From: a virus
Length of the DNA: 25,201 nucleotides
IMG/VR virus record: IMGVR_UViG_3300034112_002133
Span: 1-25,201 of that record
Strand: one strand, 5' to 3'
Shown here: in pieces, positions 3,905 through 20,600 of the stretch
Numbering within the stretch: the stretch's first letter is position 1
Layout: each line of letters begins with the position of its first letter
Program-made: the position numbers and the translations under genes
The notes under the pieces: model-generated
Told to the model about the DNA's origin: nothing
The model's database searches: none
The model's input: the letters and a program-made list of their open reading frames with translations, nothing else

Positions 3905-5560
3905 ATGTCCGACCTCGCCGATACCGTTTCCCGCCAGATCGCCGCCCTCGACGCGGATCGCCTACCGTGGGAAGGCCTTTGGCAGGAACTCGCCGAGGTA
4001 TGCCACCCCCGCCGCAACACGATCCAGCAGGGAACAGGCCGCGACACCACCCCCGACCGCTCCTCCATCGCCTGGAGCTTTGACGGCACGGCCATGCGGG
4101 CAAACTCCACCCTCGCCTCCGGCCAGTCCGCTCGCATCACGCCCATGGGAGCGCGTTGGTTTGTCCTCCGCCCGCCCGCAGAACTCAACGACTCCGCCGC
4201 CGCCCAGGAATACTACGCCCGCGCCACCGAGATCCTTGTCGCCAAGCTGGGTGCATCCAATTTCTACAACCGCGCCAACGAATGCTATCTCGACCGAGGC
4301 GCCTTTGGAATTTCCGCGCTGGAAACCACATCCGGGAAAAACGGCAGGGGACTCCATTTCCGCGCGCTTCCCTGCGGCAGCTACTCCATCGCCCAAAACA
4401 GCCTCGACGAGGTGGACGTCATCGCCAGCACCACCTGCTACACGCCGGCACAAATGCGCGAGGCCTTTGGCGAGGAGAACCTACCGCCTTCCGTCCGCGC
4501 GCTTTTCGATGAACCAGCCAAACGCTTCACCTCAAAGCAGACCGTTCAGCGCCTCATCGTCCCGCGCTCCGACCGGGATCCTCGCAAGATGGATTCCAAA
4601 AACAAACCGATTGCCTCCTACCACATCCACAAGGAATCCAACACCATCCTCCTCGAAAGCGGCTTCGATGAAATCCCCATCGCCGTCTCCCGCTGGAGCA
4701 TGTGGGGAGATTCGCCCTATGGATGGTCTCCCGCCTACCACGCCCTCCCCGAGGCCGCGCAGTTGAATTTCCTTGAGCAGATGCTCGACACCCTCGCGGA
4801 AACCGCCGCCTTCCCGCGCGTGCTCTACCCCGCCGGATTCAAGGAGGAGATTGATTTCTCCGCCCTCGGCCTCACTTGCTACGATCCCAGCCTCAACGCA
4901 AAGCCCGAGGAATGGCTCACGGCCGGACGCTACGACATCGGCAAAGACCGCTCCGCCGAGAAGCGCCGCGCCATCGAGGCCGCTTTCCATGTGGAGCTTT
5001 TCAACGCCATCTCCCACCTAGACCCGAGCGCCACCGCCACGCAAATCTCCGCCATCGTCAGCGAAAGCCGCGAGCTTTTCCACCCGATCTACTCGAACAT
5101 GGTGCGGGAATTCCTCACCCCCGTCCTCCGCCGTTCCTTCGCCTTGCTAGTCCGTTCCGGGGAAATCCCGCCACCGCCCCAGGACGTTCTCCTCCGCGAC
5201 GACCTCGGCGCCTACCTCGCGGATCCAGAAGTCGATTACGTCTCCGCCATGGCGCTCGCCATGGAACAGTCCCACCTCTCCGGCCTCGGCGACATCCTCG
5301 CCATCACCAGCCAGCTCGCCACGCTCGACCCCACCTTCCTGGACTCCCTCAATCCCCGCACGCTCCTCCCGCACTTCGCCCGTGCGAAAGGCCTGCCCAC
5401 CATCCTCCTCCGCACCGAGAAGCAGCTCGCGGAACTGGACGCCGCCCGCGCCGAAGCCGCGCAGCAACAGCAAGCCATCGCCGCCACCGAGGCCGTCCGC
5501 AACCTCGGCGGCGCCCGCGAGACCATGGACGCCGCCCAGCAACTCTCCCCGCAACAATGA
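3905..5560 (+). CDS. Portal (head-to-tail connecting) protein
   Basis: A 551-aa protein of the usual length for the T7 gp8-type connector family (head-tail connector, PF12236-like). The N-terminal WEGLWQELAEVCHPRRNTI matches the opening helix of that family. The central 'WSMWGDSPYGWSPAYHALPEAAQLNFLEQML' region is the conserved GxSP.G...al...i..Ln stretch. The C-terminal third is helical and ends in a Gln/Ala-rich tail (EAAQQQQAIAATEAVRNLGG). Twelve copies form the DNA channel at one capsid vertex, dock the terminase during packaging, and later hold the tail adaptor. The six bases before ATG (TCCCCT) contain no ribosome-binding purines. It ends in ATGA with the next gene. Confidence 0.92.
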   Translation: MSDLADTVSRQIAALDADRLPWEGLWQELAEVCHPRRNTIQQGTGRDTTPDRSSIAWSFDGTAMRANSTLASGQSARITPMGARWFVLRPPAELNDSAAAQEYYARATEILVAKLGASNFYNRANECYLDRGAFGISALETTSGKNGRGLHFRALPCGSYSIAQNSLDEVDVIASTTCYTPAQMREAFGEENLPPSVRALFDEPAKRFTSKQTVQRLIVPRSDRDPRKMDSKNKPIASYHIHKESNTILLESGFDEIPIAVSRWSMWGDSPYGWSPAYHALPEAAQLNFLEQMLDTLAETAAFPRVLYPAGFKEEIDFSALGLTCYDPSLNAKPEEWLTAGRYDIGKDRSAEKRRAIEAAFHVELFNAISHLDPSATATQISAIVSESRELFHPIYSNMVREFLTPVLRRSFALLVRSGEIPPPPQDVLLRDDLGAYLADPEVDYVSAMALAMEQSHLSGLGDILAITSQLATLDPTFLDSLNPRTLLPHFARAKGLPTILLRTEKQLAELDAARAEAAQQQQAIAATEAVRNLGGARETMDAAQQLSPQQ

Positions 5561-5835
5561 CCCCAACCCCGAAAGACAATGCCAAAGAAAACGCCGCGCG
5601 CATCAAACAGCAGCGCCAAGACCTACTCGCCGCCATCCGCCGAACCTTCGACACCCCCGACGGAAAACGAACCCTCGCATGGCTACACGCCGCCACCGCC
5701 ACCGGAGAGCCCGCATTCCAAGCTGGCCGGGATGGAAATTTCTGTCCCATTGCCGCCGCCTTCCGCAACGGCCGACAATCCGTCATACAGGAAATCGACA
5801 AAGCCCTCGCCGAAGCCGCGAGCCATACCGCTTAA
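5557..5835 (+). CDS. Bbp19-like phage protein, 92 aa
   Basis: Starts in the ATGA overlap with the portal. Residues about 25-80 follow the Bbp19 pattern: TFDTPDGKRTLAWLHAATATG, then an aromatic/acidic loop (FQAGRDGNFCPIAAAF) and RNGRQSVIQEIDKAL. This small protein is typically encoded between portal and scaffold in podovirus-type phages; its role is not established but the position suggests head assembly. The 3' end overlaps the next gene by 104 bases in another frame. Confidence 0.75.
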   Translation: MTPTPKDNAKENAARIKQQRQDLLAAIRRTFDTPDGKRTLAWLHAATATGEPAFQAGRDGNFCPIAAAFRNGRQSVIQEIDKALAEAASHTA

Positions 5836-6070
5836 CGACGAAGACGAAGAGGAACCGCTCGCCGCCAAGATCAAAGACGCACCGACCCACCCGGATCTCG
5901 GATTCGGAACGCCGGAATGTTTCCTCTGGTGCTTTGAAAACCTCTCCCGCCACGACTTCCTTTCCCTCTACGCCGAGCGCCGTCAGGAAATGCGCGAGAA
6001 ATGCCGCGGCAACCATGACACCGCCGAAGCCCTTGCCTATCTGAAACCCTCCACCAAACCACTCCCATGA
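5732..6070 (+). CDS. Hypothetical protein upstream of scaffold, 112 aa
   Basis: The likely start is ATG 5732, giving a 104-base overlap with the Bbp19-like gene. An in-frame ATG at 5579 would overlap that gene almost entirely, and no ATG, GTG or TTG occurs in frame shortly after 5732. The first ~35 residues, read in the overlap, are Pro/Ser/Lys-rich and probably disordered. The folded part begins at the acidic run DEDEEEPL and contains TPECFLWCFENLSRHDFLSLYAERRQEMREKC (positions 5909-6004), a helical segment with three cysteines. No family was recognised. It ends in ATGA with the scaffold gene, so it may be co-expressed with head assembly factors. Confidence 0.6.
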   Translation: MEISVPLPPPSATADNPSYRKSTKPSPKPRAIPLNDEDEEEPLAAKIKDAPTHPDLGFGTPECFLWCFENLSRHDFLSLYAERRQEMREKCRGNHDTAEALAYLKPSTKPLP

Positions 6071-6948
6071 TCGATACCCCCGAAGCACCACCCGCCGAAG
6101 CCCCGCCCGTAGCACCCGCCGCGCCCGAGCCACCACCCGCCGCTGAAATCGTAACGCCGCCAGCCGCACCCGCCGCACCGCGCGCCTTCAACGACGACGG
6201 CACATTCACCGAGAACTGGCACCAGGCATTCGGCGATGAATTCAGCGCCTACGGAGAAACCGCCGCCCGTTTCAAAAATCCCGGCGACCTCCTGAAATCC
6301 TACGTCCACCTCCGCCAGACCGGCCCCGCGTATCCCGACGCCACCGCCACGCCCGACCAGGTGGAACGATTCCGGCAACTCGCCAACGTGCCGGCCACCG
6401 CCGAAGGCTACAACCTCCCCGTCCCGGAGAACTTGCCGGAGGGAGTAAGTTTCAACGCAGACCTCGCCGCAGACTTCGCCAAGCTCGCCCACCAGCACCA
6501 TGTCCCCGCGCCCGCCCTCCGCGCGCTCATGGACAAGCAGCTTGCCATCGCCTCCGCCGAGGCCAGCGAACACGCGCAGGCCATCGCCAAGGCGCAGGAA
6601 GAAGCCCGCTCGTCTCTCATCACCGAGTGGAAAGGGGACTACACCAGCAACCTCTCCACCGTCCGCCACCTCACCGAGCGTTTCGGCGAGGCCGCAGGCA
6701 TCGAGGAGGGAGCCGTAAAAGAACTCGCCAACAATCCCGCCTTCGCCCGCATCATGCACCAAGTGGCAAAGCTCACCCGCGAGGATAGCGTCGCAGCCCC
6801 CGCAGGCTTTGGCGATCTCCGCTCCTCCGCCGAGCGGGCAGACTCCATCATCGCGGGCAAGGATGCGCAATGGAGCGAGCGCTACGCCAACGGCGACCCC
6901 GCCGCCTACCAGCTCGTCACCAAGCTCCTCGGCGAGGCCAAGAAATAA
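6067..6948 (+). CDS. Capsid assembly scaffold protein
   Basis: A 293-aa protein placed directly before the major capsid gene. Residues 1-40 are almost all Ala/Pro/Glu, a disordered N-terminus. The rest is charged and helical: a 'F..D.TF.ENWHQAFGDE.....AARFKNPGDLLKSYVHLR' block (about 40-80), then long helices rich in Ala/Glu/Lys/Gln and a C-terminal AYQLVTKLLGEAKK. The 'fk....dllkSyv.lr' segment is common in podovirus-type scaffolding proteins. It would co-assemble with capsid protein to shape the prohead and then leave or be degraded. The gene is followed by a strong terminator, so it ends the upstream transcript. Confidence 0.8.
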   Translation: MIDTPEAPPAEAPPVAPAAPEPPPAAEIVTPPAAPAAPRAFNDDGTFTENWHQAFGDEFSAYGETAARFKNPGDLLKSYVHLRQTGPAYPDATATPDQVERFRQLANVPATAEGYNLPVPENLPEGVSFNADLAADFAKLAHQHHVPAPALRALMDKQLAIASAEASEHAQAIAKAQEEARSSLITEWKGDYTSNLSTVRHLTERFGEAAGIEEGAVKELANNPAFARIMHQVAKLTREDSVAAPAGFGDLRSSAERADSIIAGKDAQWSERYANGDPAAYQLVTKLLGEAKK

Positions 6949-6968
6949 TCTCAGCGTTGTGTTGTTTT

Positions 6969-7008
6969 CCGCCCGTCCTCTCTCGCAGGGGGCGGGCGGT
7001 TTTCGTTT
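6969..7008 (+). terminator. Rho-independent terminator after scaffold gene
   Basis: CCGCCCG (6969-6975) pairs with CGGGCGG (6993-6999). The stem extends inward through T-G, C-G, C-G, T-G and C-G pairs to 12 bp, with loop TCTCGCA (6981-6987). TTTTCGTTT follows at once. It separates the packaging/portal/scaffold transcript from the capsid unit. Confidence 0.85.
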
Positions 7009-7021
7009 CCCCGCTTCAATA
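7006..7021 (+). repeat. Copy B of the repeated motif, just after the terminator
   Basis: The same TTTCCCCGCTTCAATA, immediately 3' of the T-run of the terminator and about 170 bases before the capsid start. The position would suit a promoter or processing element, but no -35/-10 pair is clear. Confidence 0.6.
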
Positions 7022-7090
7022 GCGGATTTACAGCGTTTCCCGCAGTCTCATCACCGACGCAAGACAGACAACCGGCACCAGTGGCCGCCC

Positions 7091-7134
7091 TGTCCTAAAG
7101 CACAGCCGCACCTCGCTCTGCCCCTTTTAGGACA
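7091..7134. promoter_or_regulatory. Inverted repeat TGTCCTAAA / TTTAGGACA upstream of capsid gene
   Basis: TGTCCTAAA (7091-7099) and TTTAGGACA (7126-7134) are perfect 9-bp inverted repeats, with a G-T pair possible just inside and a 26-base spacer. The arms are more AT-rich than the surroundings. It could be a two-half-site operator or a long-loop RNA hairpin in the capsid leader. It lies about 55 bases before the capsid start. Confidence 0.5.
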
Positions 7135-7161
7135 ACCGGACGCGAACGGATTCACCAACCG

Positions 7162-7190
7162 TTTCCAACCAAACCACTACCACCACCACC
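7162..7190 (+). promoter_or_regulatory. CA-rich, G-free leader of the capsid gene
   Basis: The 29 bases before the capsid ATG contain no G and are mostly CCA/ACC repeats, ending CACCACCACC-ATG. There is no Shine-Dalgarno tract. An unstructured leader like this can support efficient SD-independent initiation; a similar CA-rich stretch (8152-8168) lies before the decoration-like gene. Confidence 0.5.
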
Positions 7191-8120
7191 ATGTCACTTG
7201 CAGTTCCAGACCATTTCACCACTCAGTTCGGAAAGAACTTCGAACCACTCGTCGCCCAGACCGTTTCCCGCCTGCGTAAATTCGCGGTCGTGACCACCGG
7301 CTGCACGGGCGAAGCCAAGACCCACAACCAGGTCGATTCCATCGCCGCGAAGGAAACCACCGGCACCCGCTACAACCGCCTCGCCCAGAAGGATCTCGAC
7401 ACCGAGAAACGCTGGAACCACATGAGAACCTTCCAAGGTCTCACCAGCGAGCCGAAGTGGGACGAGATCGCCCTTGCACCCACCATCATGGGGCAAGGCA
7501 CTCACATCGTGCAGCACTCCGCCGCCTACGCCCGCCAGCTTGACGCCGTGCTCATCGACGGCCTGCTCGGCACCAACTACGTCGGAGCGACCGGATCCAC
7601 CACGCAGGCCATCACGCAATCCGTTGCGGTGGACTTCGTGCCATCCGGCAGCCCGGCCAACAGCGGCATGACCGCCTCCAAGGTCATCGAAGCCGTCCGC
7701 CAGCTCCGCGCCTCCGAGGCATGGAACAGCGAGGCGCAGGCACGCGGCGTGAAACTCTGCGGCTTGCTCAACTCCGAGCTTGAGGCGCAGCTCCTCCACG
7801 CAGCGAACACCAACGCCGGCGACCGACTCTATTCCAAGGAATTCCTGCCACCCGTCTATGACGAGAACGGCGGACTTCGCTTCTGGCTCGGCGTCAATTG
7901 GGTTTCCATCGAGGCGCTTCCCACCAACACCGGCGGCACCATCGCCGAGTCCGCAATCTGGACTTCCGACGGCCTCTATCTGGATATCTGGCAAGACCTC
8001 AAGGTCTATGTCGATATCCTGCCGGAGCTCGACCATTGCGTCCAGTTCAAGTCCGACTACGCCTTCAACGCCTGCCGCAGGCAGGAAAAGCAGGTCGTCA
8101 AAATCAACTGCGTCCTCTAA
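7191..8120 (+). CDS. Major capsid protein
   Basis: A 309-aa protein right after the scaffold. It shows the pattern of podovirus-type capsid proteins with an HK97-like fold: an N-terminal helical arm (VPDHFTTQFGKNFEPLV), a long loop (KTHNQVDSIAAKETTGTRYNRL), a central spine-helix region, then beta-rich LNSELEAQLLHA and FWLGVNWVSIEALPT. The C-terminal P-domain-like segment (YLDIWQDLKVYVDILPELDHCVQFKSDYAFNACRRQEKQVVKINC) is typical of phage major capsid proteins, with conserved 'a.r....kvv.i.c'. It forms the icosahedral shell. High expression is suggested by its own leader, the upstream terminator and the downstream hairpin. Confidence 0.9.
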   Translation: MSLAVPDHFTTQFGKNFEPLVAQTVSRLRKFAVVTTGCTGEAKTHNQVDSIAAKETTGTRYNRLAQKDLDTEKRWNHMRTFQGLTSEPKWDEIALAPTIMGQGTHIVQHSAAYARQLDAVLIDGLLGTNYVGATGSTTQAITQSVAVDFVPSGSPANSGMTASKVIEAVRQLRASEAWNSEAQARGVKLCGLLNSELEAQLLHAANTNAGDRLYSKEFLPPVYDENGGLRFWLGVNWVSIEALPTNTGGTIAESAIWTSDGLYLDIWQDLKVYVDILPELDHCVQFKSDYAFNACRRQEKQVVKINCVL

Positions 8121-8129
8121 CCCCACCAA

Positions 8130-8151
8130 GCCGGGGGAGCGATCCCCCGGC
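8130..8151 (+). other. Perfect hairpin with GNRA tetraloop after the capsid gene
   Basis: GCCGGGGGA (8130-8138) pairs perfectly with TCCCCCGGC (8143-8151) around a GCGA tetraloop, an especially stable GNRA loop. No U-run follows, so it is more likely an mRNA-stabilising 3' barrier or processing site for the capsid message than a full terminator. Confidence 0.75.
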
Positions 8152-8183
8152 AAACCTCACCACCAACCGAAAGAACAACTATC

Positions 8184-8645
8184 ATGGCCGAATTCGATTC
8201 CAACCTTGTCACCACTTCCGAAGCCCGTCTCGTCTCCGCAGGATTGCGCGATGGCGACGACGCCAACGGCAAGCTCACCGTCGCCACCGCCAAAGTCACC
8301 CTCACGGGCTCCACGGCTGCCAACGACATCCTCAACATCATCCCGACGAAATATTTGCCGGTTGATGCTTGTGTCGTGCCGCAGCTTTGCAGCGTCACCA
8401 GCTCCGATCCGGGAACCACGCTCACCCTCGACATCGGCCACACCGGAAACGTGGACGCCTACGCCGACGGCATCACCCTCAGCTCGGGCGGCATCATCGG
8501 CTTTTGCTCCGGCACCAAGCCGAGCACGGTCGAAACTCCTGTCCGCACGGACGACACGGGCGCGATCTTCGCGACCGTCATGTCCGCCGACACGATCACC
8601 AACGGAACCGTCCTCACGTTCCTGATCGCCTACCGCTCGAAATAA
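8184..8645 (+). CDS. Probable capsid decoration or head structural protein, 153 aa
   Basis: Lies directly after the major capsid gene. The sequence is beta-rich, with many Thr/Ser/Gly/Val: TVATAKVTLTGSTAANDILNIIPTKYLPVDACVV, then 'TTLTLDIGHTGNVDAYADGI' and 'GAIFATVMSADTITNGTVLTFLIAY'. The order 'ndil.iiptkylPvda.vv...TLtlDiG' resembles small structural proteins that follow the capsid gene in many tailed phages and form beta-sandwich decorations. Function is inferred from position and composition. It is flanked by the GNRA hairpin before and a hairpin plus terminator after, so it probably shares the capsid transcript. Confidence 0.7.
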   Translation: MAEFDSNLVTTSEARLVSAGLRDGDDANGKLTVATAKVTLTGSTAANDILNIIPTKYLPVDACVVPQLCSVTSSDPGTTLTLDIGHTGNVDAYADGITLSSGGIIGFCSGTKPSTVETPVRTDDTGAIFATVMSADTITNGTVLTFLIAYRSK

Positions 8646-8661
8646 TCTTCCGGGGGGAAGA
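8646..8661 (+). other. Short hairpin abutting the stop codon
   Basis: TCTTCC (8646-8651) pairs with GGAAGA (8656-8661) around GGGG, starting on the base after the TAA stop. With the larger terminator next to it, this makes a tandem 3' structure. Confidence 0.5.
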
Positions 8662-8668
8662 ACCAACC

Positions 8669-8706
8669 GAAAAGCCCCGTTCCGCCATGCCGGGGCGGGG
8701 CTTTTC
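8669..8706. terminator. Strong, probably bidirectional terminator after the capsid unit
   Basis: GAAAAGCCCCG (8669-8679) pairs with CGGGGCTTTTC (8696-8706). The stem continues through two G-T pairs and three G-C pairs to 17 bp with loop CCATGC (8685-8690). Its A-run and T-run sit at the stem base, so it could work in both directions. It separates the capsid genes from the tail genes. Confidence 0.88.
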
Positions 8707-8724
8707 ACTTTCCACATTGCCGCC

Positions 8725-9660
8725 ATGACGAAAACGCAGATCGCCAACCTCGCCCTTTCCCACCTGGGGGAGCCCGCCGCCACCGACATCGACGTCGATT
8801 CGACGACCGCCGCCACCGTTTGCCGGACGCATTACGACAACACCCTCGCCACCCTCCTCGAAACCCACCCCTGGAACTTCGCCCGCGCCCTCACCAAGCT
8901 CATCCCCTCACAGGTATCCGTCACCTACACCAAGGCCAGCGGCACCTTTTCCAGCGGACTCACCACCCACACCGTCCAGCTTTCCCTCACCACCTACACC
9001 GCCGCCGCCACCACCTACGTCGGCACGGATGCGGACGACAATGTTTTCACCCTCACCAAGGCCGCAAACACCGCCTACGCGGAACTCTCCGCCGTGGACG
9101 ATGCTGACGCCACTCTCACGGACTACGCCGCCCGCACCGCCTCGACCTTCCCCGTGGACGCCTTCCCCTATCAGGAGCCGTGGACGATTATCGATGCGTC
9201 CATGTCCGCCGTCGCCACCATGCTTTCCACCGCGTTTCTCCCCTGGACGGTTGCCTACGACCTCCCCGCCGCCTGCCTCCGCGTCCTCCGCTTTGCCACC
9301 ACATCGGACACCGCCCTGCAGCGCTTCGAGATCGTGGACAGGAAAGTCCTTTGCGACACCGAGGACACGCTGAATCTCTATTTCATCACCAGCGCCCCGC
9401 CGCTCGCCTCCTACCCGCCGAGCTTCATAAACGCCTTCACCCTCCTCCTCGCCTCCGACATGGCCAGGCAGATCACCGGCAGCGAGCAGACCGCCAGCGA
9501 CTTCCTGCAAAAGCACAAGCTCGCCCTCAACCAGGCCTTAACCAAGGACACCCGCGAGACCCAATCCGGCGAGAACATGACCCCCCGCCGCCTCGCCATG
9601 AAATCCGGCCTCTACCGTTCCCGCTTCCGCAATAACGGCGCACCCGGCTTCGACCTATGA
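8725..9660 (+). CDS. Tail tubular protein A (tail adaptor) with internal insertion
   Basis: A 311-aa protein. The N-terminus, TKTQIANLALSHLGE, then VCRTHYDNTLATLLETHPWNFA (about residues 31-52), is the classic opening of the T7 gp11-type adaptor. The second half resumes the family pattern: DLPAACLRVLRF, YPPSFINAFTLLLASDMARQITGSEQ and the C-terminal helix. The usual length is about 190-210 residues; here roughly residues 62-148 form an added Thr/Ser/Ala-rich, beta-like stretch with paired 'T.YTxAATTY' phrases, inserted where a loop is expected. Twelve copies bridge portal and nozzle. It is preceded by a terminator, so a promoter must lie nearby or read-through occurs. It couples by ATGA to the nozzle gene. 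Confidence 0.87.
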   Translation: MTKTQIANLALSHLGEPAATDIDVDSTTAATVCRTHYDNTLATLLETHPWNFARALTKLIPSQVSVTYTKASGTFSSGLTTHTVQLSLTTYTAAATTYVGTDADDNVFTLTKAANTAYAELSAVDDADATLTDYAARTASTFPVDAFPYQEPWTIIDASMSAVATMLSTAFLPWTVAYDLPAACLRVLRFATTSDTALQRFEIVDRKVLCDTEDTLNLYFITSAPPLASYPPSFINAFTLLLASDMARQITGSEQTASDFLQKHKLALNQALTKDTRETQSGENMTPRRLAMKSGLYRSRFRNNGAPGFDL

Positions 9661-12629
9661 ACCCCACCCTTCTCTCATTCAACAACGGCGAAGTTTCCCC
9701 CTACCTCCGCCACCGCATTGACCTCGAAAAAGCCGCGTCTTCCGCCGAGACTTGCGAGAACTTCACGGCCACGCCCTACGGAGCAATCAGCAAGCGCCCC
9801 GGCCTCCTGCATGTCGGCATGTCAGCCGCCGCCCCGCAAAACTCCCACCTCCACCCGTTCATCTCCACGGACGGCTCCCGCTACCTCCTGCATTTCACCG
9901 AGGACTTGCTCACCATTTACCGCGAAGACGGCACCGTAGCGGACACCATCGCCCTCCTCACCTCCACTTCCCCGACCGCCAGCGACAGCACCACCGGCTT
10001 CTGGTCGGCTCCCCTCCGCGAGCTGCAAATCGAGGCCGTCAACGACGTCCTTTTCATCACTCACCCGGACACCCATCCGCTCCGCATCTCCCGCGTATCC
10101 GATACCAACTGGACAAAGGAATTCATCCCCTTCACCCAGCCGCCCGTCATCGACCAGAACGCCGACCCGCTTCTCAAACTCTCCGTCTTTTCCAACCCCA
10201 TCGCCCCCGCATGGGTAACTTCCACCAGCTACGCCCTCGGCTATGTCGTCTTCGAGGGCGGCGCGGAGTGGCAATGCACCGTAGCGCACACATCCGGCTC
10301 CGCGTCCCGCCCCGGTATCGGCGCAGACTGGAAGGGATTATGGCGGCGTAAGCTCTACGCGGAAGGGGACGCCATAACCATATCCAGCATCAATTCCTTT
10401 TTTACCGCTTTTGTCAGAAGCTACTCCGTCAACGACGTTTCCTACGCCGCAAACTACCCTACCAATCCGCACCCCAGCATTTGCATAATGAGCCACACGC
10501 CCACACGGCTCCAGGACTCGGCAGGGTATTTGAGCTCGGATCAAGACAAATGGGCGCTTGCGACGGCATATAATGCACAGGAATCGGTTTTCGCCAATTC
10601 TTACAGAACTTACTCCGGCAATATTTATAAATCTTTGGCCGTCTTCTCAGCTAGTCCCGTCGGCTCCCCAGCATCCCGCCCCGATTTGTGGGAATTTGTA
10701 ATAGCTGTCCCGGGCTCCATTCCTATCTATGCACCCTTCCCGACGATCACAGCAGGGATGTATATTTCCCACCTTGGCATTGTGTGGGAAGCTCTCACAA
10801 ATGTAACCCCGACTCTCATTATTGACGGCATCACAGGCGCTCCGGTTGCAGGAGTTAATTGGCGTCTAGTAGATAATTTGTTCCTTCCTGGCCACGGCTC
10901 GTCGGCAGACTCGCCCGGCTCCGCATGGAAACTCTCCCCCCGCCGCGACGACAAGGATTTCCAGATTTCCCACGGCGCACTCACCGGCAACAACAACACC
11001 GGCTCGCAGCCCATCGCCATGCAAGGCGCGTGGAATATCAATACCTATGGCACATGGAGCGGCACGTTTAACGTGCAGCGCAGCGACGACAACGGCCTCA
11101 CCTGGGAAACCATCCGCAGCTACGAGGCAAAAGCAGACCGCAACATCGCCGACTCCGGCATCGAGGATGCGCCATGTCTCCTCCGTCTTTTCTTTATCCA
11201 GGACGGCTCCACCGCCGCCAGCGGCGGACAGCGCGCCGTCCTTACCCCGGAAAAACAATCCATATCCGGCTACGTTCAAGCCGACACTTACGTCAACAGC
11301 GCACAATTAACCGGCACCGCGCTAACGCCCGTCATGTCCGGCCTCACTCCGGACTGGAGCGAAGGCGCTTTTTCCACGGTTCGCGGATTCCCCAGCACCC
11401 TCTCCCTCCACGAAAGCCGCCTTTGTTTTGCTGGCACAGCCTCAAACCCCGTTTCCCTTTGGCTTTCCCAAACCGACGACCTTCTCAACTTCGAGCAAGG
11501 CGTCGATGATACCGATTCCATCTTCGTCACCCTCGCCGCGCCTTACCAATACCCCATCCGCTGGATCGAATCCCAGCGCCGCCTTTTTATCGGCACCGCC
11601 GTCGCCCTATGGGTAGCCGGTTCGGAAACATCAGACGCCGCCCTCACCCCATCCAACTTCAACGCCCGCACCTACGCCGCCACCGGCTCCTCCACCCTCC
11701 GCCCGCTCCTCGCCTCGGAATCCCTCTTTTTCACCGATCGCAAAGGCTCGCGCCTCCACCAGCTCGCTTTCTCCGCCGATGCGGAAAGCTACGAACCCAT
11801 CGACCTCTCCCGCCTCGCCGAGCACCTCACCCAGCCCGGCATCGCCCAGCTCGCATGGCAGCAGACGCGCGAGCCATCGCTCTGGGCGGTCACCCGCGAG
11901 GGAAAGCTCCTCCAATTCTCCTACTCCCGCCGGGACAACCTCATGGCCTGGAGCCAGCACACCACCGCAGGCGGGACGTTCCGCAACGTCGCTGTCCTCC
12001 CATCCGATCGCGGGGACGACGACGTGTTTTTCATCGTCCAGCGCGCCGGAGGCTCTGCCCTGGAGCGTTTCCCCCAGCACTACCAAGAGACGCAGGAAAC
12101 CGGCAACACCCCCGGCCTCACCGCCTCACCGCTCTTTCCCTACCACTACCTCGACGGCATCAGCTACCGCGGCACCGCCACCACCTCGCTCACCGTCCCC
12201 GCCACCCTCATCGGCCAAGCCCTCACCCTCCTCACCGTTTCCGCCGGCGGAGTGGTCACCAGCTCCACCGTCACCCCGTCCGCCTCGCCGCTCACCATCG
12301 CCAGCACCACCCGCGCCATCCTTGGGAAGCCCATCACTTCCCGCCTCTCATCCCTCCCCGTGGACATGCCCGGCAATCAATCCCTCACCAAGCGCCTCCA
12401 CAAAATCGCCCTGAGTCTTTTCCGCTCCAAAGGCGGCACCATGTTCAACGCCGCCGCCGCCAGCGCCAAGCCCATCCCGTATCCATCCACCGACCTTTAC
12501 ACCGGCTGGACGGAAATGCTCCCGGATCTCGGCAACAAGGACGAGGTGCAGGTGCATATCGTCCACGCCGATCCCTACCCCTTCACCGTCCGCGCCGTCG
12601 CCCTCCGCATGAACCAGCAGGAGCGCTAA
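9657..12629 (+). CDS. Tail tubular protein B (tail nozzle) with inserted modules
   Basis: A 990-aa protein; T7 gp12, the family type, is about 794. The N-terminus, LLSFNNGEVSPYLRHRIDLEKA...NFTATPYGAISKRPGL, is the standard nozzle start. The second half carries the family hallmarks: FPSTLSLHESRLCFAGT, LFIGTAVALWVAGSE, LFFTDRKGSRLHQLAFSADAESYEPIDLSRLAEHL, and LWAVTREGKLLQFSYSRRDNLMAWSQHTT. Six copies form the tail tip through which DNA leaves. Residues about 185-403 hold three segments resembling carbohydrate-binding modules (see 10360-10880), suggesting that this nozzle may also take part in host recognition. No separate tail fibre gene was seen in the window. Confidence 0.88.
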   Translation: MNPTLLSFNNGEVSPYLRHRIDLEKAASSAETCENFTATPYGAISKRPGLLHVGMSAAAPQNSHLHPFISTDGSRYLLHFTEDLLTIYREDGTVADTIALLTSTSPTASDSTTGFWSAPLRELQIEAVNDVLFITHPDTHPLRISRVSDTNWTKEFIPFTQPPVIDQNADPLLKLSVFSNPIAPAWVTSTSYALGYVVFEGGAEWQCTVAHTSGSASRPGIGADWKGLWRRKLYAEGDAITISSINSFFTAFVRSYSVNDVSYAANYPTNPHPSICIMSHTPTRLQDSAGYLSSDQDKWALATAYNAQESVFANSYRTYSGNIYKSLAVFSASPVGSPASRPDLWEFVIAVPGSIPIYAPFPTITAGMYISHLGIVWEALTNVTPTLIIDGITGAPVAGVNWRLVDNLFLPGHGSSADSPGSAWKLSPRRDDKDFQISHGALTGNNNTGSQPIAMQGAWNINTYGTWSGTFNVQRSDDNGLTWETIRSYEAKADRNIADSGIEDAPCLLRLFFIQDGSTAASGGQRAVLTPEKQSISGYVQADTYVNSAQLTGTALTPVMSGLTPDWSEGAFSTVRGFPSTLSLHESRLCFAGTASNPVSLWLSQTDDLLNFEQGVDDTDSIFVTLAAPYQYPIRWIESQRRLFIGTAVALWVAGSETSDAALTPSNFNARTYAATGSSTLRPLLASESLFFTDRKGSRLHQLAFSADAESYEPIDLSRLAEHLTQPGIAQLAWQQTREPSLWAVTREGKLLQFSYSRRDNLMAWSQHTTAGGTFRNVAVLPSDRGDDDVFFIVQRAGGSALERFPQHYQETQETGNTPGLTASPLFPYHYLDGISYRGTATTSLTVPATLIGQALTLLTVSAGGVVTSSTVTPSASPLTIASTTRAILGKPITSRLSSLPVDMPGNQSLTKRLHKIALSLFRSKGGTMFNAAAASAKPIPYPSTDLYTGWTEMLPDLGNKDEVQVHIVHADPYPFTVRAVALRMNQQER
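10360..10880 (+). other. AT-richer insertion within nozzle gene, CBM-like repeats
   Basis: In this stretch, hand-counted 60-base lines fall to 47-52% GC (for example 10561-10620 and 10801-10860), against about 65-70% on either side. It encodes nozzle residues ~235-408. Three segments (about 185-229, 298-346, 357-403) share a 'W....Y..g..V...g..w.......S...sRP....W..' layout like small aromatic chitin/carbohydrate-binding folds (CBM5/12-type); the first has WQCTVAHTSGSASRPG. The first copy lies just before the AT-rich patch. Family assignment is tentative. Confidence 0.6.
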
Positions 12630-12633
12630 CCCG

Positions 12634-12647
12634 TTCCCCGCTTCAAT
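12634..12647 (+). repeat. Copy C of the repeated 14-nt motif (intergenic)
   Basis: TTCCCCGCTTCAAT, four bases after the nozzle stop and 35 bases before the next start. Together with copy B it is one of two intergenic occurrences. Confidence 0.6.
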
Positions 12648-12682
12648 CCCCGCCACCCCATTTTTTACCCATCCTCACCCCA

Positions 12683-13162
12683 ATGTTCGGAATCGTCGGA
12701 ATGCTAGGCGGCCTGCTTTCGGCTGGCCTTGGAATTTACAGCACACGGCAGCAGGGGAAAACCGCCGTCGCCGCCGCGAACTACAACAACGCCCTCGCCG
12801 TGCGCGAGGCGGAAAACCTCCAAAAGGAAACCGCCGAGAACATCGCCCGCACCCGCATCAATAACCGCCGCAGCCTTTCCACCCTCCGCACCCGCGCCGC
12901 CGCATCCGGCACCCTCACCACATCCGGCAGCACCGCCGCCATGCTCGCCGCCGCCGCCGGAACTTTTGAGGTGGGTATCGCCGACGCCGCCCGCGCCGCC
13001 AACCTCCGCGCCGAATCCATCCGCCAGCAGGGTCAAATGAAAATCTGGGAAGCCAAGCAGCAGAAAAAAGCCGCGAACCTCCAAGCCATCGGCCAAGGCA
13101 TCGCCGGACTCACGAAGGCAGCAGACACCGCATACGGAAATTACCAAATAGGCTCACGATGA
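12683..13162 (+). CDS. Internal virion protein, gp14-like, 159 aa
   Basis: Starts at ATG 12683, the first ATG after the nozzle stop that leaves a sensible leader; upstream in-frame ATGs lie inside the nozzle gene. Residues 1-20 (MFGIVGMLGGLLSAGLGIYS) form a Gly-rich hydrophobic membrane-type segment. The rest is Ala/Arg/Gln-rich helix (ANYNNALAVREAENLQKETAENIARTRINNRR, then AAMLAAAAGTFEVGIADAARAANLRAESIRQQG). This matches small internal virion proteins after the nozzle, such as T7 gp14, which is ejected first and forms an outer-membrane channel. The 53-base gap before it holds repeat copy C and a T-rich run but no clear hairpin. It couples by ATGA to the next gene. Confidence 0.75.
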   Translation: MFGIVGMLGGLLSAGLGIYSTRQQGKTAVAAANYNNALAVREAENLQKETAENIARTRINNRRSLSTLRTRAAASGTLTTSGSTAAMLAAAAGTFEVGIADAARAANLRAESIRQQGQMKIWEAKQQKKAANLQAIGQGIAGLTKAADTAYGNYQIGSR

Positions 13163-14637
13163 TCCGCTTACCCGACACCCCCACCTTCGCCTCCACCGGA
13201 CTCGGCGCGCCCCAGGTATCCGCCGAAGCCGCCGCCGCGCCCGCCCGCGCCCTCGGCACCATCGCCGGAGCCATCGGCCAGGCATCCGACGGTTTCGTAA
13301 AACTCGGCCACGACCTCGCCCGCATCGACAACGCCCGCATGATCTCCGAAGCCCGCACCAACCGCGCCTCGGCCTACTCGCAATTTCAGATCGATCTCCA
13401 AAAGGAAACCGACCCACAAGCCCGCATCGCCCGCACCAACGCCTTCCTCGCCGAGCAGAAGAGCAGCATGATTCCCGCAGGCGCTCCGCCCGTAGTCCGC
13501 GACGCCCTCGCCCTAGACTTCGAGGACTTCTCCGCCCGCACCCAGATCAATGCCGCCCAGGACGCCGCACAGCTCACCACCAAGCGCGCCACCCTTGCCT
13601 TTCAAAATGAGGTGGACGCAGCCAAGCGCACCGGCAACCGCGACCAATACGAAACCGCCAAGCGCACAGCCGCCGAAGCCCTCGGCCTACTCCCCGAAGA
13701 ACTCGACGCCATGGACGCGGATTTCGACCGCAACACCACCCTACTAGGATTCGACACCCGCATTTCCCAAGACCCGCGCGCCGTCCTTGCAGAAACTGAA
13801 TCCGAATCCTTCGACACCGACCACCCGTTCCTGGACGCCACCGACAAAAACCGCATCCGCCGCGCCGCGCAAAGCCAGCTTGAGGACTTCCGCAGCGAGG
13901 AAATCGACCTGCTCGAAAACGCCCTCGCCGACGGCACCCTTGCCCCGCCCGATCTTGAGGCAGCGGAATTCATTTCCCCAAAAGATCGCCGTTCCTTTTC
14001 CGACGCCCTCATCAAATCACAGGGAGAGGAACCCATTTCAAAACAGGATTACCTCAACGCCTGGAAAGTCACCGACGTCCTCCGCTCCGCCCGCAACAAC
14101 CCCGCCGTGAGTGACGACCAATACCGCCTCATCCACAACGAGGCACGCACCGACATCCTCGCCCGCGTCCCACCCTCCCTCCAAGGAGATTTGAAAAAGG
14201 AACTCGGCTACCTCTCGCCCGCAGGCCGCGACACCTCCGCGCCCGCCAACCCGTCCGACCGCGCGGAACTCGAATCGATCGCCCGCGCACAGATCAACCG
14301 CGCCCACGACGCCGGCGCTTTCGGCGACGTTTCCAAGGAAGCCGACTACGACACCCGCGAGAAAGCCGCCCGTCAGGCCGAGGACATCCGCATCGAGGCG
14401 AAACGCTTCATCGCCTCCCGCCCCACTCCGCCCTCGCCCGCCGAGGTGCGCGACTTCGTGGACAGCATGAACCAGCGCAGCATCGGCTCCAATTCCCTAC
14501 TCCTCCCCACCATCCCGCAAAAATTCAGCATCGGCGACGACATCGACAGCTTGCTCGAAACGCCACCCATCCAACCTCTCGACGGACTCGCCCCAGGCAC
14601 TCCCGGATCCACCGACGCACTCCTCCCACCACGATGA
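13159..14637 (+). CDS. Internal virion protein, gp15-like position, 492 aa, with KFSIG motif
   Basis: Almost wholly alpha-helical and rich in Ala/Arg/Asp/Glu, coupled by ATGA on both sides. The N-terminus (residues 1-60) has a Gly/Ala-rich helix, APARALGTIAGAIGQASDGF, common in phage internal/ejection proteins. The centre has repeated helices such as AAQLTTKRATLAFQNEVDAAKR. T7 gp15 is larger (about 750 aa), so identity is by position and composition only. Notably the C-terminus carries PQKFSIGDDID at residues ~453-463, the same FSIG motif that separates modules in the giant protein encoded next. No lytic transglycosylase motif was seen. Confidence 0.7.
   Translation: MIRLPDTPTFASTGLGAPQVSAEAAAAPARALGTIAGAIGQASDGFVKLGHDLARIDNARMISEARTNRASAYSQFQIDLQKETDPQARIARTNAFLAEQKSSMIPAGAPPVVRDALALDFEDFSARTQINAAQDAAQLTTKRATLAFQNEVDAAKRTGNRDQYETAKRTAAEALGLLPEELDAMDADFDRNTTLLGFDTRISQDPRAVLAETESESFDTDHPFLDATDKNRIRRAAQSQLEDFRSEEIDLLENALADGTLAPPDLEAAEFISPKDRRSFSDALIKSQGEEPISKQDYLNAWKVTDVLRSARNNPAVSDDQYRLIHNEARTDILARVPPSLQGDLKKELGYLSPAGRDTSAPANPSDRAELESIARAQINRAHDAGAFGDVSKEADYDTREKAARQAEDIRIEAKRFIASRPTPPSPAEVRDFVDSMNQRSIGSNSLLLPTIPQKFSIGDDIDSLLETPPIQPLDGLAPGTPGSTDALLPPR
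14521..14535 (+). repeat. FSIG motif in gp15-like protein (KFSIG)
   Basis: Encodes K-F-S-I-G at residues 455-459, 34 residues before the protein end. It is the only copy found outside the giant gene and links the two proteins. Confidence 0.7.
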
Positions 14638-17600
14638 CACCCACCGACCTGCAACTCGTCCAAGGAGACGCCACCAGCATCCCCGAAGAAACCGCCTTCG
14701 CCGCCTACCAGACACTCCGCGAGGCGCGCACCAACCCAGAGCTCGCGGCCAGCCCCGCCCTTGCCACTTCCCGCGAGGCGCTGAAATCCTACGTCACCGA
14801 GCGCCGCCGCCACGGCCACGACCTTTTCCCCAACGTCACCACCGCCGCCAACCGCGAGCGCAACGATTCCCTCGCCGGGCTCTACACCAAGCCCCTCGAA
14901 AAAGCCCTCCCGCAACAGGCCTTCGCCGACCTCACCCGGAAAATGGAATTCGTTCCTGATCCGGAGGCTTTCAAGATGCGGGAAATCAATCGCACCTTCC
15001 TTTCCGCCACCGTCGGCCAAGCCATCCCGCCGGAAAAATACGACACCATCCGCACCATCTACGCCAAGCAGCACCTCGGCCTGGACAAGGACACATCGGA
15101 AGCCGCCGTTTTCACCGCCATCAAAACCCGCTTCGATGAGGAACTTGGAAGCACCGAGAAAATCCGCGAGATCGCCAAGGGAGAATTTGAATCCATCCTT
15201 GGCGGCACACTCCCCACCACGCTCCCCGACCTCTCCGCCATCCCGGAGCGCCTTCGCCCACAGGTATCCGACCAGATCCTCGCCACCCGCCGCCAGTCCA
15301 AGGAGCGCATCCGCCAGGCTATGCCCGCCGTCCGCGAGATCATGCCCGCGCTCCAAGCCGAAGCCGCCCGACTCGCATCCGGGCAAATGCAGGGACTCCC
15401 GCACCTCGCACTTATGGATCGCATGGCCGCCGCCCTCCCGCGTGATCCGGTGAAAAAGGAAATCGCCATCGCTCTCATCGCCCGGGAAATGCAGAAGCTC
15501 CCCGAGCAAGAGAAAGGCGCATTCGCCCGCATCCTTACCTCCATCGAACGCGGCGGGGACAACGCCGCCATGTCCGCTATCCGCGCCCCCATGGAGGCCG
15601 GAGCCGCCATCCGCGACATGATCCCCGCCGGAGCCGAGCAGAAGCGCACAGCCGCCGATAACCTCACCATCCGCACCGACGCGGAAAACCTCCGCAAGGC
15701 TTTCCTCGGCGAAGTGGATCCGCTCCGCAGGGCAGGGGACAACATCGCCGTGCAGTCCCTTGTCCTTGCCGGGGAATCCGCCTGGACGATCCCCGCCACA
15801 CTTTCGGGGCCGATAGGATGGGGCGCAATGGCATCCAGCTTTGCCGGAAATTCCTTTCAAGAAGCCCGCACCATAAACCCGGACGCATCCGCAGGCGCAC
15901 AGATCGGCGCGGCAGCCGCTTCCGGCGTCGCCCAGGCGGGCGCGGAGGTTGTCCTCAACAAGGTGGGATTCAAGATCATCGGCGGGAAACTCCCCGGCCT
16001 CGCGGGAATCCTCAACAAATCCGGCGTCTTCAACCCCGCCGCCCGCGCCACCATCGCCGGAGCTACCGGAGCCGTATCCATCGGAGCCACGGAATATGCC
16101 GAGGAAGCCGTGCAGGGAGGCATCGACCGCCTCGCGCAGGATCTCGCACTCGAGTTTTCCAACATCGCACCGGATACCGATTGGAAAGGATTCTGGGGTG
16201 ATTGGCTCACCGTCGGCAAAGCGGAACAGAAGGACACCCTCCTCGCCGTCCTTCCCTTCGCCGTTGTCGGCGCAGGCGGCGCATCCTTCCAGCATTTCCG
16301 CTACGGATCGCAGCTCGCCAAAAACCGCACCGTCCTCGACGCCATCGGCGTTCCCTCCTCCGTCGTGGACGAAATGGTGAACACCACCGACGTCAAAAAG
16401 ACCGACGAGCTTTTCCGCCAGGCATGGGAAACCGGACTGGAGGAGCGCACGCAGGAGCAGAAAGCCGCCGCGCTCGACGTCATGCGGGAAATCAATTCCC
16501 TCACCGCCGCCGCCGGACTCGACCGCATCACCCGCGATTCCGAATTCACCTACACCTACACCGACCCACTCACGCGCGACTCGCAGGAATTCGAGACCGA
16601 GGAGGAGGCGCTTCTCCACTGGAGGCAGCAGGCGCTTTCCGCCAGCCAGACCGACCTCGACACCATCGCCCTCACCTCCCGCGAGGACTTGCTCAATTTC
16701 CTCACCTCCGAAGGCAAGGCATCCGAGGAAACCATGATCGACGAGCAGGAGCGCACCCTCACCCTCCCGCAGGCCGTCAAGGAAGGCATCGCCAACCCAG
16801 AGCAGATCGAGAGCCGCGTCCGCATCTTTATCCTCCAGAACGGCCTCACACCCGCACAGGCCGCAAAGGAAGTGGAATCCCTCACCATCCGCGCCCGTTC
16901 CTACACCCAGCAATCCCGCGACGGCCAATACCGCTACGCCGTGCAGCTTTTCAAGAACGCCGACCCTCTCGACGTCTTCGAGGACTTTGCCGAGGACAGC
17001 ATCAAGCGCGCCTTCGACGATTCCCTCGCCGATCCCCGCCGCATCCTCCGCGACATCCGCGACTATGAGGGAGCCAGCAACACCCGCCTCATTGCCCAGG
17101 ACTACGAGTATGACCCGGACAACACCCTCCCGCTTGTGGAAGGCTTCTCCGCCCTCGCCCGCGCCCTTGTCATCGGCAACGCCCGCGCCGATCTCCTACC
17201 GCCCGCCGTTTCCCAATGGATCGAAGTCGCCGCCACCTACGGAGCCAACACCATCGACCTCGCCCGCTCCGCCATCACCGCCGACCTCACCCGCGCCGGG
17301 GAACTGAAAAAAGCCCTCGCATCCGGCAACGTCCCCACCGAACTCGTCTCCCGCCTGGAGGACGCCATCGGCATCAATGAAACCGAAGTCCTAGCCCGCC
17401 TCGAAAAAAAGCACCGCGACCAGCTCGCCGCCGAGGCCATGGGAGGCTTCCCAGAAATCCGCGACAATCTGGAAGGCCGTATGCCCCACCCGGAAACCCT
17501 TCGCAAAAACCAGCACCCACTCGCCGGCGAAGTGCGCCGGATATGGGAGAGCATGAAAAAGCCCACCCGCCGCAAGGACAGGAGCGGGCGCACCATCGAC

Positions 17601-20600
17601 CGCTCCAACGAGGCCAACGCCTTTTTCCTCCCCGTCGGTCAAATGGTGGACATCGACAAGCTCCGCGAGTCCATGAACGAAAAGGGCTTCGACTTCGACA
17701 CCCCCGCCGACATGCTCGACGCCCTCGAATCATCCATCTCCTACAACAAACCCGTCTATGGCACCGGCAGCCGCGGGAATGATTCCTTCTCCATCGGGAC
17801 GACATATCCAAGATTCAACTTGCGCCCGGACGGCGCCACGCTTTACGTCCACTCAAACACAGGTGTTCTTTTTCCGGACGGCCATGAAATCAAAACGCTA
17901 CCAGCAGTCCCCGATACGCTATCCGATGGGAGAGGAGCGTTTTGGGACGGGATTCGGAATGGTGGACGACGTGACGCCATACTGCGCGCATGGCGAAAAA
18001 AAGGAACCGACCAGCGCAATGCCGACTGGCTTGTCAAAGCCCTATCCAAAGCGGACGGTTGGAAGAATTCCGGCACCGTAGCGGAAACATGGCAATGGCT
18101 GGCAAACAGCCTCAACTCCATGACCATCGATCAAGGATGGGAAGTTGAAAACATCATTGAAACCCTGCCGGAACTGCTAGACCTGCCCGGCGCTGTATGG
18201 GAAGGCATCAGGGAAAAGGATTACGCATACATCCCAATCAGCCCAGACGGCACAGTCCTTTACACCCCCGTCAGAGAACAAAAATTCGCCTTCGGTCGGC
18301 TCCCTACAACCGCAGAAGTAGCAGAAGCCCAAGCAGCACACGACGCAAACCCACAAATCTACCCTTCCTTCTCCATCGGCCGCGCTATTCCCCGCGCCGC
18401 AAAAACCTTTGAAGAAGCCCGCGAGTCCGCGCGGTCATTTATCGGAAAGCCCATCGTCAACGCGGACGACAACACCGTCGCCACAATTTCCGCTAACTCC
18501 CTCAGGAAAATACTCCACGAAAAAGCGTCATCGAAATCCGTTTCCCCGGAAGTTCATTCCCTTGTGACAGCAAATCTCGACACACTTTTCGAAAGATCCA
18601 TCCGCACCCACAGCGACACGAATCCGGACGGCGACAACATGAAGGCAAGGCACCGTTACCACGCGCCTTTCATCAGCGGGGGGGAAGTGATGCTAGCCAA
18701 GATCACCGTCAACGAATTCAAGGAGGAATCCGACGGAACGCGGATCTACTCGGTGGAGGCCATGGAAATAGTGAAACCCGCAATTTTCAAGGCGTCCTCC
18801 ATTTCCGAAGATCGGCGGAACTACAACCGGGTTGCGGGCTTCGAGGAGAAATTAGAATCGCGCATTGCCGAAGTCAACAATCAACCATCCGTTGAGAGTT
18901 CCTTTTCCATCGGCCGCGCCACCGTCACCCCCACCAAGGAAACCCAAACCTCCCCCACCAAGGACGGCGATTCTTTCTCCATTGGAGCCAGCCCCGCGCC
19001 TTTCTATTCCCAGCTCGAAAGAGTCATCGAGGACAAGCTCCCCAAGGCCGCCACATTCGCGCAGATCATGGCCACCATCGACCCCGCCAAAGGCAGCGGA
19101 GTCAAAGCAGAGGAAATCAAATGGAGCGGCATCGAAAGCGAAGTTTTCCGCCTCGCCCTGGATAATGACAAGGTGAAGAAATCCGACCTCCTCGCCTACC
19201 TCGCCGCCGCCGGGCGCGTGGAATTTGCGGAAGTGACCATGAGTGATCCGCAAAGAAAAGGAGCGGTTTATGATTGGGCTGTTTCCAATGGGGAGGAAAA
19301 TACTTACTTCCGCAGCTACCAAGAAGCAGCGGAATACGCCGACCAGCAAGGAATCAACATCACCGAAGATACTGTTTTCCAAGCCACAAATCGGCGGCGG
19401 GACTCAACTAATCCGAAATACGAACAATACACCCTCCCCGGCGGTGAGAACTACCGGGAAACCGTCCTCCGCCTACCCCAAAAAGGCACCAGCTACACCG
19501 AGGAAAACGTTGTCGCAATCGACCCCGCCGCGCCTATCGCCGGACGCCCGGATTTGTTTTGGTATTTTGAAGTCCCCGGCAACGTCCTCCAAATACCAAA
19601 GTCCAATCACCCGACTCAGGCCGAGGCCAAAACCTATATCCTCCGCGACAAGCAACCCGAGGAACCAAATTCCTACACTTCCAGCCACTTCCCCGAAATT
19701 TCCAACTACGTCGCGCACATGCGCCTCAACGAACGCGAAGATTCACAGGGAGCTCCCGGCCTTTTCATTGAGGAAATCCAAAGCGACCGGCACCAAGCGG
19801 GCAGGAAAAAAGGTTATGCACTCGGACGACCGAATGAGAATGATATTGAGCTGAATTTCATAAAGTCAGTCGTGCCAGAGGGACAGGATCCCTCAAACTA
19901 CCCCGGATATTGGGAGAGTTTCGACAAGCGCACCGGGGAAATGATTACCCGCCATCCGGGTAGATCAACGAGGGAGCAGGCCATGAGGGACGCCCAAGGA
20001 TTCGGTGAGGGGATGGACTCCGAGCGCATCGCCGACGCCCCATTCCGCACCACCTGGCCGCTCGCCATGTTCAAGCGCGCCCTCCGCGAGGCCGTGGAAT
20101 CCGGCAAGGATTGGATTGGCTGGACGGTTGGCGAGACTCAGAACGATCGCTTTGACCTGAGTAAGCAAGTGCGGCACATCGACTGGCGGGTAAGCTCTGA
20201 ATCCAACCGCGAGGCTGTAAAAATCGACGTTGGGGTAGCGACATTACAAGGCGGAGACGCACAAGACCTAAACAAAGAAGCACTCACATATTCTGAGATT
20301 GCCGACTTCGTAGGCAAGGAAATTGCCGACAGAATTAAAACTCAAGTGGACTCCTTCAAAAGCAAAGGAAGGCTTGAAGGAGACGGCCTTAAAGTCGGCG
20401 GCTCCGGCATGAAAGGCTTCTACGACAACATGCTGCCCAAGGAGATCGGGAAGTATGTGAAGCAGTGGGGCGGGAAGGTGGAATCCTCCACCATCGGCCA
20501 ATCCATCGCCTCCGAGGAAATCGACATGGGTGAACTCGACAACGCCACCCCGGAAGAACTCGCCCAGCTTGAGGCGGACGGAGCCATCCAAGGCAAAGCC

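Follow-up and report, generated by a model that had tools for sequence, protein, structure and literature searches.

A predicted array of four CBM5/12-like units in the tail nozzle of a podovirus, with exchange of a middle unit among close relatives and a putative role in host-glycan contact

Tail nozzles are usually viewed as conserved conduits, with host choice being assigned to fibres and spikes. T7 gp12 consists of 794 aa, and the nozzle gene in the present study encodes a markedly longer protein, which raises the question of what the additional residues are and whether they may contribute to contact with the host. The DNA examined (hereafter the window) is the entire virus record of 25,201 bases, and this record is a fragment because it stops within an open ORF of 3522+ aa. 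The features discussed below are listed in Table 1.

By profile comparison, the product of the ORF at 9657-12629 (P0001) is a podovirus tail nozzle. It matched the PHROG 376 tail protein family with an E-value of 1.3e-113 and the Tail Nozzle of Carin1 (8ck1) with an E-value of 4.8e-47 (9.5e-95 with a profile), and the alignment to 8ck1 consisted of two blocks, residues 7-184 and 557-807. The Pfam family Phage_nozzle (PF25675), a single model that does not span all nozzles, gave a partial match at residues 24-135 (16.8 bits; gathering score, 27). The upstream tail gene at 8725..9660 probably encodes the adaptor, or tail tubular protein A, and is preceded by head-tail adaptor (portal-like) and major-head genes. 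Nothing was matched when the phage collection was searched with the nozzle gene at the DNA level, when genomes were scanned with the nozzle alignment, or when the defence library was searched.

Table 1. Positions of the nozzle gene, its insertion and units, the variable regions, and neighbouring genes in the window.
Feature	Nucleotides	Strand	Residues	Remarks
Upstream tail gene	8725..9660	+		PHROG 394 tail protein, E 9.2e-30; PHROG 9239 tail tubular protein, E 3.1e-8
Tail nozzle gene (tail tubular protein B / gp12-like), P0001	9657..12629	+		990 aa
Insertion	10194..10880	+	~180-408	Delimited by alignments; AT-rich
Unit 1, CBM_5_12	10209..10349	+	185-231	Pfam E 8.8e-6
Unit 2, CBM5/12-like by pattern only	10407..10553	+	~251-299	
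Unit 3, CBM5/12-like fold, swapped module	10557..10712	+	~301-352	
Unit 4, CBM5/12-like fold	10725..10877	+	~357-407	
Variable tract	10464..12666	+		135 of 152 window-L002 differences over 17.4 kb
Mosaic block, most of unit 3	10532..10675	+		65 of 144 positions differ from L002
Giant ORF, open at record end	14634-25201			3522+ aa; LPD3, GNAT acetyltransferase, weak phosphoribosyltransferase match

The original prediction that this nozzle is approximately 200 residues longer than usual was confirmed: it has 990 aa against 830 in 8ck1, and the additional residues are located between the aligned blocks, which are separated by ~373 residues in P0001 and ~128 in Carin1. When P0001 was aligned with nine other nozzles, those more distantly related had nothing equivalent to residues ~180-408. 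The interval originally proposed for the insertion, 10360-10880, is indeed part of it, but starts too late, because the insertion begins at ~10194, and it accordingly misses the strongest CBM5/12 match. The AT-richness and the abundance of Trp and Tyr attributed to this region were both borne out. The GC content of 10360-10880 is 0.509, which places it among the lowest 0.1% of 521-bp windows in the contig. The AT-richest part of the whole contig falls inside the insertion, and W, Y, and F together account for 12.9% of the insertion versus 8.7% of the remainder of the nozzle. Across residues 180-412, the GC content was 0.545 and third-position GC was 0.605, versus 0.82-0.83 at the start of the nozzle (0.827) and in the major head gene. 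The GC content of the insert was also low in the close relatives L003 and L004 (0.554 vs 0.62), slightly lower in the more distant L009 (0.527 vs 0.548), and little different in L034 (0.576 vs 0.594).

The layout of the insertion suggests four small tandem CBM5/12-like units; the resemblance to CBM5/12 had been foreseen and is supported by a Pfam match and, through a low-confidence model, by fold searches, whereas the number of segments had been given as three. Unit 1 is the most conserved of the four, and its match to CBM_5_12 (PF02839) at residues 185-216 is borderline in the whole protein (26.1 bits) and slightly stronger as a lone segment (26.6 bits), with a gathering score of 26.2. This match was found in the window and in four relatives, three of which exceeded the cutoff of 26.2, namely L002 (34.7 bits, E 1.8e-8), L004 (31.6 bits, E 1.7e-7), and L009 (26.8 bits, E 5.2e-6); the fourth, L003, scored 21.8 bits (E 1.9e-4). 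Units 2-4 of the window gave no match to Pfam CBM_5_12, and those of the relatives reached 14.2 and 16.7 bits at best against the same cutoff, the L009 counterpart of unit 4 scoring 16.7 bits. By this measure, units 2-4 are CBM5/12-like and not members of the family, and since they fall below the cutoff, chitin or cellulose cannot be assumed to be the ligand. Unit 2 is the weakest claim because HHalign detected no similarity between it and units 3 and 4; it aligned with unit 1 (probability 34%, E 4e-4) and showed paired strands in the low-confidence model. No CBM_5_12 match was found at E<=1 in the L034 nozzle, the units of which were assigned from the alignment and by eye. In nozzles of another lineage (L010, L011, L013, and L015; 1139-1225 aa), a seeming CBM5/12-like motif is split by a propeller-like stretch and lies elsewhere in the protein, ahead of the motif YQEGAYSDHRGYP; the two halves from L010 joined by hand gave a CBM_5_12 E-value of 4.5e-4, while the intact proteins had no such match.

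In the model of the insert (mean pLDDT 51), strand pairs occur at each of the four unit positions, and the pLDDT of unit 3 is mostly 71-88. Using VIA-align on this low-confidence model, for which the tool's note regards a Z below 8 as middling, unit 3 resembled the chitin-binding domains of chitinases (Z 7.0) and unit 4 the module of Vibrio cholerae chitin deacetylase (Z 5.5), with the top-ranking matches agreeing with one another. Unit 3 also resembled parts of phage appendages, including the tail fibre of A-1(L) (8kec, Z 6.2), the receptor-binding complex of Milano (8fqc, Z 6.2), and the tail fibres of 7-7-1 (9rkv, Z 5.4). A Foldseek search of the PDB with the insert model returned mostly chitin-binding enzymes and some phage receptor-binding parts, none with E <1e-3, whereas a fold search of a viral library with the same low-confidence model gave 29 matches at E <1e-3, the best of which was a phage ChiC_BD protein (3.6e-8); several were named ChiC_BD, chitin-binding type-3, or CBM5/12. 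The full-length AlphaFold2 model of the nozzle had a pLDDT of 43 and was discarded for locating the insertion; a fold continuous with the propeller, which would speak against a separate domain, was not seen in it, but the model is too poor to decide this point. A protein search with the insert alone against 50,697 phage records gave a best E-value of 0.02, these hits being other tail proteins, and no sequenced phage nozzle with the insert was recognised by this search. Among the nozzle matches listed, the aligned span was ~670-730 codons against ~920-980 in the query, which is too short to hold the insert.

A comparison of near-identical phages identified the insertion as the region of the genome that varies most, and this variability is the new aspect of the present study. 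The 17,424-base alignment between the window and L002, a contig from another dataset, has 99.16% identity and shows no differences over 5208-10463 and 13001-18000. The differences were concentrated in the variable tract (Table 1); apart from one just past the nozzle, the few others lie in the giant ORF. The mosaic block within this tract has sharp edges, as two positions differ in the ~70 bases 5' of it and one in the ~230 bases 3' of it, and 25 of the 38 amino acid changes in the nozzle fall within residues 294-340. In the block, pS was 0.38 and dN/dS 0.61, whereas changes in the rest of the tract were mostly synonymous (dN/dS 0.13-0.16), and a dN/dS >1 was not found. Because synonymous change in the block is also high, replacement by recombination, and not the accumulation of point mutations, accounts for it, and the difference in unit 3, as read from the two alleles, is an in-frame module swap. 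Recombination is directly visible in these data, whereas selection on the swapped block can only be inferred. A diversity-generating retroelement was considered and rejected, as the substitutions affect all bases and are accompanied by a 3-nt gap, instead of being adenine-focused and free of indels.

More divergent alleles were also present. In L003, residues 232-412 were only 23-38% identical by segment, with many indels, whereas the flanks (residues 1-179 and 413 onward) were 94-97% identical, with 97% for residues 1-179 and 413-560. L007 carries the L003 allele and is identical to it as far as L007 reaches; by alignment, these two constitute a second allele class with a largely different middle insert. 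L004 was intermediate, with 62% identity in the insert and 89-93% in the flanks. Ordinary phage recombination in a weakly constrained surface decoration or spacer with no binding role might generate such a pattern, and the exchange evident from the high synonymous divergence, the lack of any dN/dS >1 (0.61 in the block), and the drift of units 2-4 away from the CBM5/12 pattern are all compatible with a tolerated insertion of this type. We nevertheless regard this as improbable because the insertion is in frame and at the same site in three lineages, the CBM5/12 match of unit 1 is kept in all close relatives, and the divergence forms a sharp block over one module and is not diffuse.

Three of the six related contigs break inside the insertion (L005, L006, and L007). 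L005, from another dataset and 100% identical to the window, ends at 10653, and L006 (99.99% identical) ends at 10463, one base short of the first variable site. On a rough estimate, three of six ends would fall in a 700-bp stretch with a probability of ~0.002 if contig ends were spread evenly across 15 kb. Breaks are expected at a position where the strains in a sample diverge, and together with the L002 allele being known from a single contig, they might be taken to indicate that the variability is an artefact of assembly, with strains of a metagenome joined into chimeras. This appears very improbable: L005 repeats the window allele up to 10653 in another dataset, the L002 allele is in frame and has the better CBM_5_12 score (34.7 bits), and the second allele class was recovered in two datasets (L003 and L007) with identical sequences in the overlap. 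Furthermore, a chimera would still require the existence of both alleles.

The insertion was found by alignment at the same site in the nozzles of L009 (55% identical) and L034 (41% over the best segment). Low GC is consequently not a sign of a recent gain of the whole insertion, which is common to nozzles of 55% and ~41% identity, and that candidate history was rejected; the horizontal acquisition previously deduced from base composition thus holds for parts of the insertion, the recombination of which is seen directly, and not for the insertion as a whole. L034, found by a genome scan with the portal, lies in a contig binned to an uncultured Acidobacteriia genome, and looks like a prophage because glycerol-3-phosphate dehydrogenase and acyltransferase genes come after its phage genes. 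Hosts in Acidobacteriota are accordingly a lead and not proof, since binning can err and the relation to L034 is distant. The L034 nozzle (L034:15679-19248, 1190 aa) has an extra insertion near the N-terminus, at residues ~60-290, which is absent from the window.

The nozzle had also been proposed to bind a host polysaccharide in place of a missing tail fibre, and the idea that it replaces a fibre is not supported. The ORF at 14634-25201, a large polyvalent protein by its domain content, has SFSIG-type motifs repeated between its parts, and its counterpart in L009 (2605 aa) matches the DNA-repair family phrog_10276. The next gene in L009 encodes a 613-aa protein that weakly matches tail-fibre family PHROG 19602 (E 0.0017) and is repetitive at its C-terminus; slightly further downstream lies an endolysin gene. 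In L034, one unassigned ORF lies between the giant ORF and a lysin-like gene. Since the window is a fragment that stops before the position matching the fibre-like gene of L009, the lack of a tail-fibre gene in view carries no weight. A separate receptor-binding protein, which would argue against a role for the nozzle, is thus weakly indicated in relatives, and the nozzle is probably a further recognition protein and not the only one. Genome scans with the product of 13159-14637 and with the end of the giant protein retrieved the contig of L002 only. Most of the few differences between the window and L002 outside the nozzle lie within 18001-22000, and a second stretch of lower GC (0.556) occurs in the middle of the giant ORF at 17500-20500, which is possibly another exchanged part. 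In L023, a fibre-like protein (L023:7951-9792) has a C-terminus made up of numerous repeats of the GTASGTFTDCTAG type, which suggest a beta-helix.

The insertion is a real and well-delimited feature of this nozzle with a likely, predicted function in host recognition. Suggestive in this respect is that the block differing most between near-identical phages is the insertion itself, which points to the nozzle helping to recognise host sugars, and allele swapping makes a role at the host surface likelier. The tip of T7 gp12, which faces the outer membrane, is built from a loop projecting out of propeller blade 3, and propeller residues Y146 and Y281 are named on either side of this loop (PMC6702177). 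By the order and length of parts, the present insertion falls in the corresponding stretch, and by analogy with T7 it would be placed at the nozzle tip and the nozzle would be a hexamer. We consider it fairly probable that the nozzle tip bears an array of four CBM5/12-type modules that makes putative contact with host glycans alongside a separate fibre, and that the middle modules are exchanged. With four modules per nozzle protein and a hexamer as in T7, about 24 modules would surround the tail tip. They may bind host-surface polysaccharide weakly and multivalently once the virion nears the cell, as a secondary or trigger contact beside the fibre, and this contact may possibly aid the opening of the nozzle; the middle modules would be swapped by recombination as the surface glycans of hosts change. 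Glycan binding, the ligand, and the role of the insertion in recognition are inferred. A stronger proposal, in which the nozzle is the primary organ of host recognition, with a lectin-like array of four recombined modules coupling glycan recognition to channel opening, is doubtful. The fibre-like gene in L009 means that the nozzle need not decide host range.

The modules may instead bind extracellular polysaccharide, such as the biofilm matrix, chitin, or the walls of plants and fungi, and retain virions near hosts without influencing host choice. The nearest solved folds are the chitin-binding domains of enzymes, and many phage proteins whose role is unknown carry similar modules, both of which agree with retention. 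On the other hand, the exchange of modules between near-identical phages is a trait more usual for parts that recognise the host, and the nozzle tip, if that is where the insertion resides, would be an odd site for mere retention; we therefore consider this alternative to be unlikely. Under the preferred reading of host-glycan contact, variable CBM5/12-like modules in a nozzle would extend the set of likely determinants of host range, and the natural allele pairs described here represent a means to test nozzle-glycan contact in adsorption or in the triggering of DNA ejection. We found no published account of CBM5/12 units in a nozzle, with most subscription papers, any on Carin1 included, lying outside the coverage of this search.

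The nozzle of Cobetia phage Carin1 (8ck1) is homologous to P0001 over residues 7-184 and 557-807, whereas T7 gp12 is compared with it by the order of parts; both share with the window the general gene order of adaptor then nozzle, but neither has such an insertion. The CBM5/12 modules of Serratia marcescens ChiB, Streptomyces griseus ChiC, and V. cholerae chitin deacetylase resemble unit 1 by the Pfam match and the modelled units 3 and 4 by fold; in contrast to these enzymes, the present units would be four in tandem within a tail protein of the virion, with units 2-4 below the Pfam cutoff. A CBM5/12-like fold is also present in host-binding parts of the phages A-1(L) (8kec), Milano (8fqc), and 7-7-1 (9rkv), and in the Pam1 tailspike (7eea); those modules are carried on fibres or spikes, whereas the modules predicted here are inside the nozzle. 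The host range of the Acinetobacter podophage vB_Ab4_Hep4 was broadened by one substitution in tail tubular protein B, a protein that competed for adsorption when supplied in recombinant form (PMC10904470). That mutant is similar to the case proposed here in that a nozzle-type protein affects host range, and differs from it in that a single substitution at a repeat locus was responsible, in place of the exchange of inserted modules.
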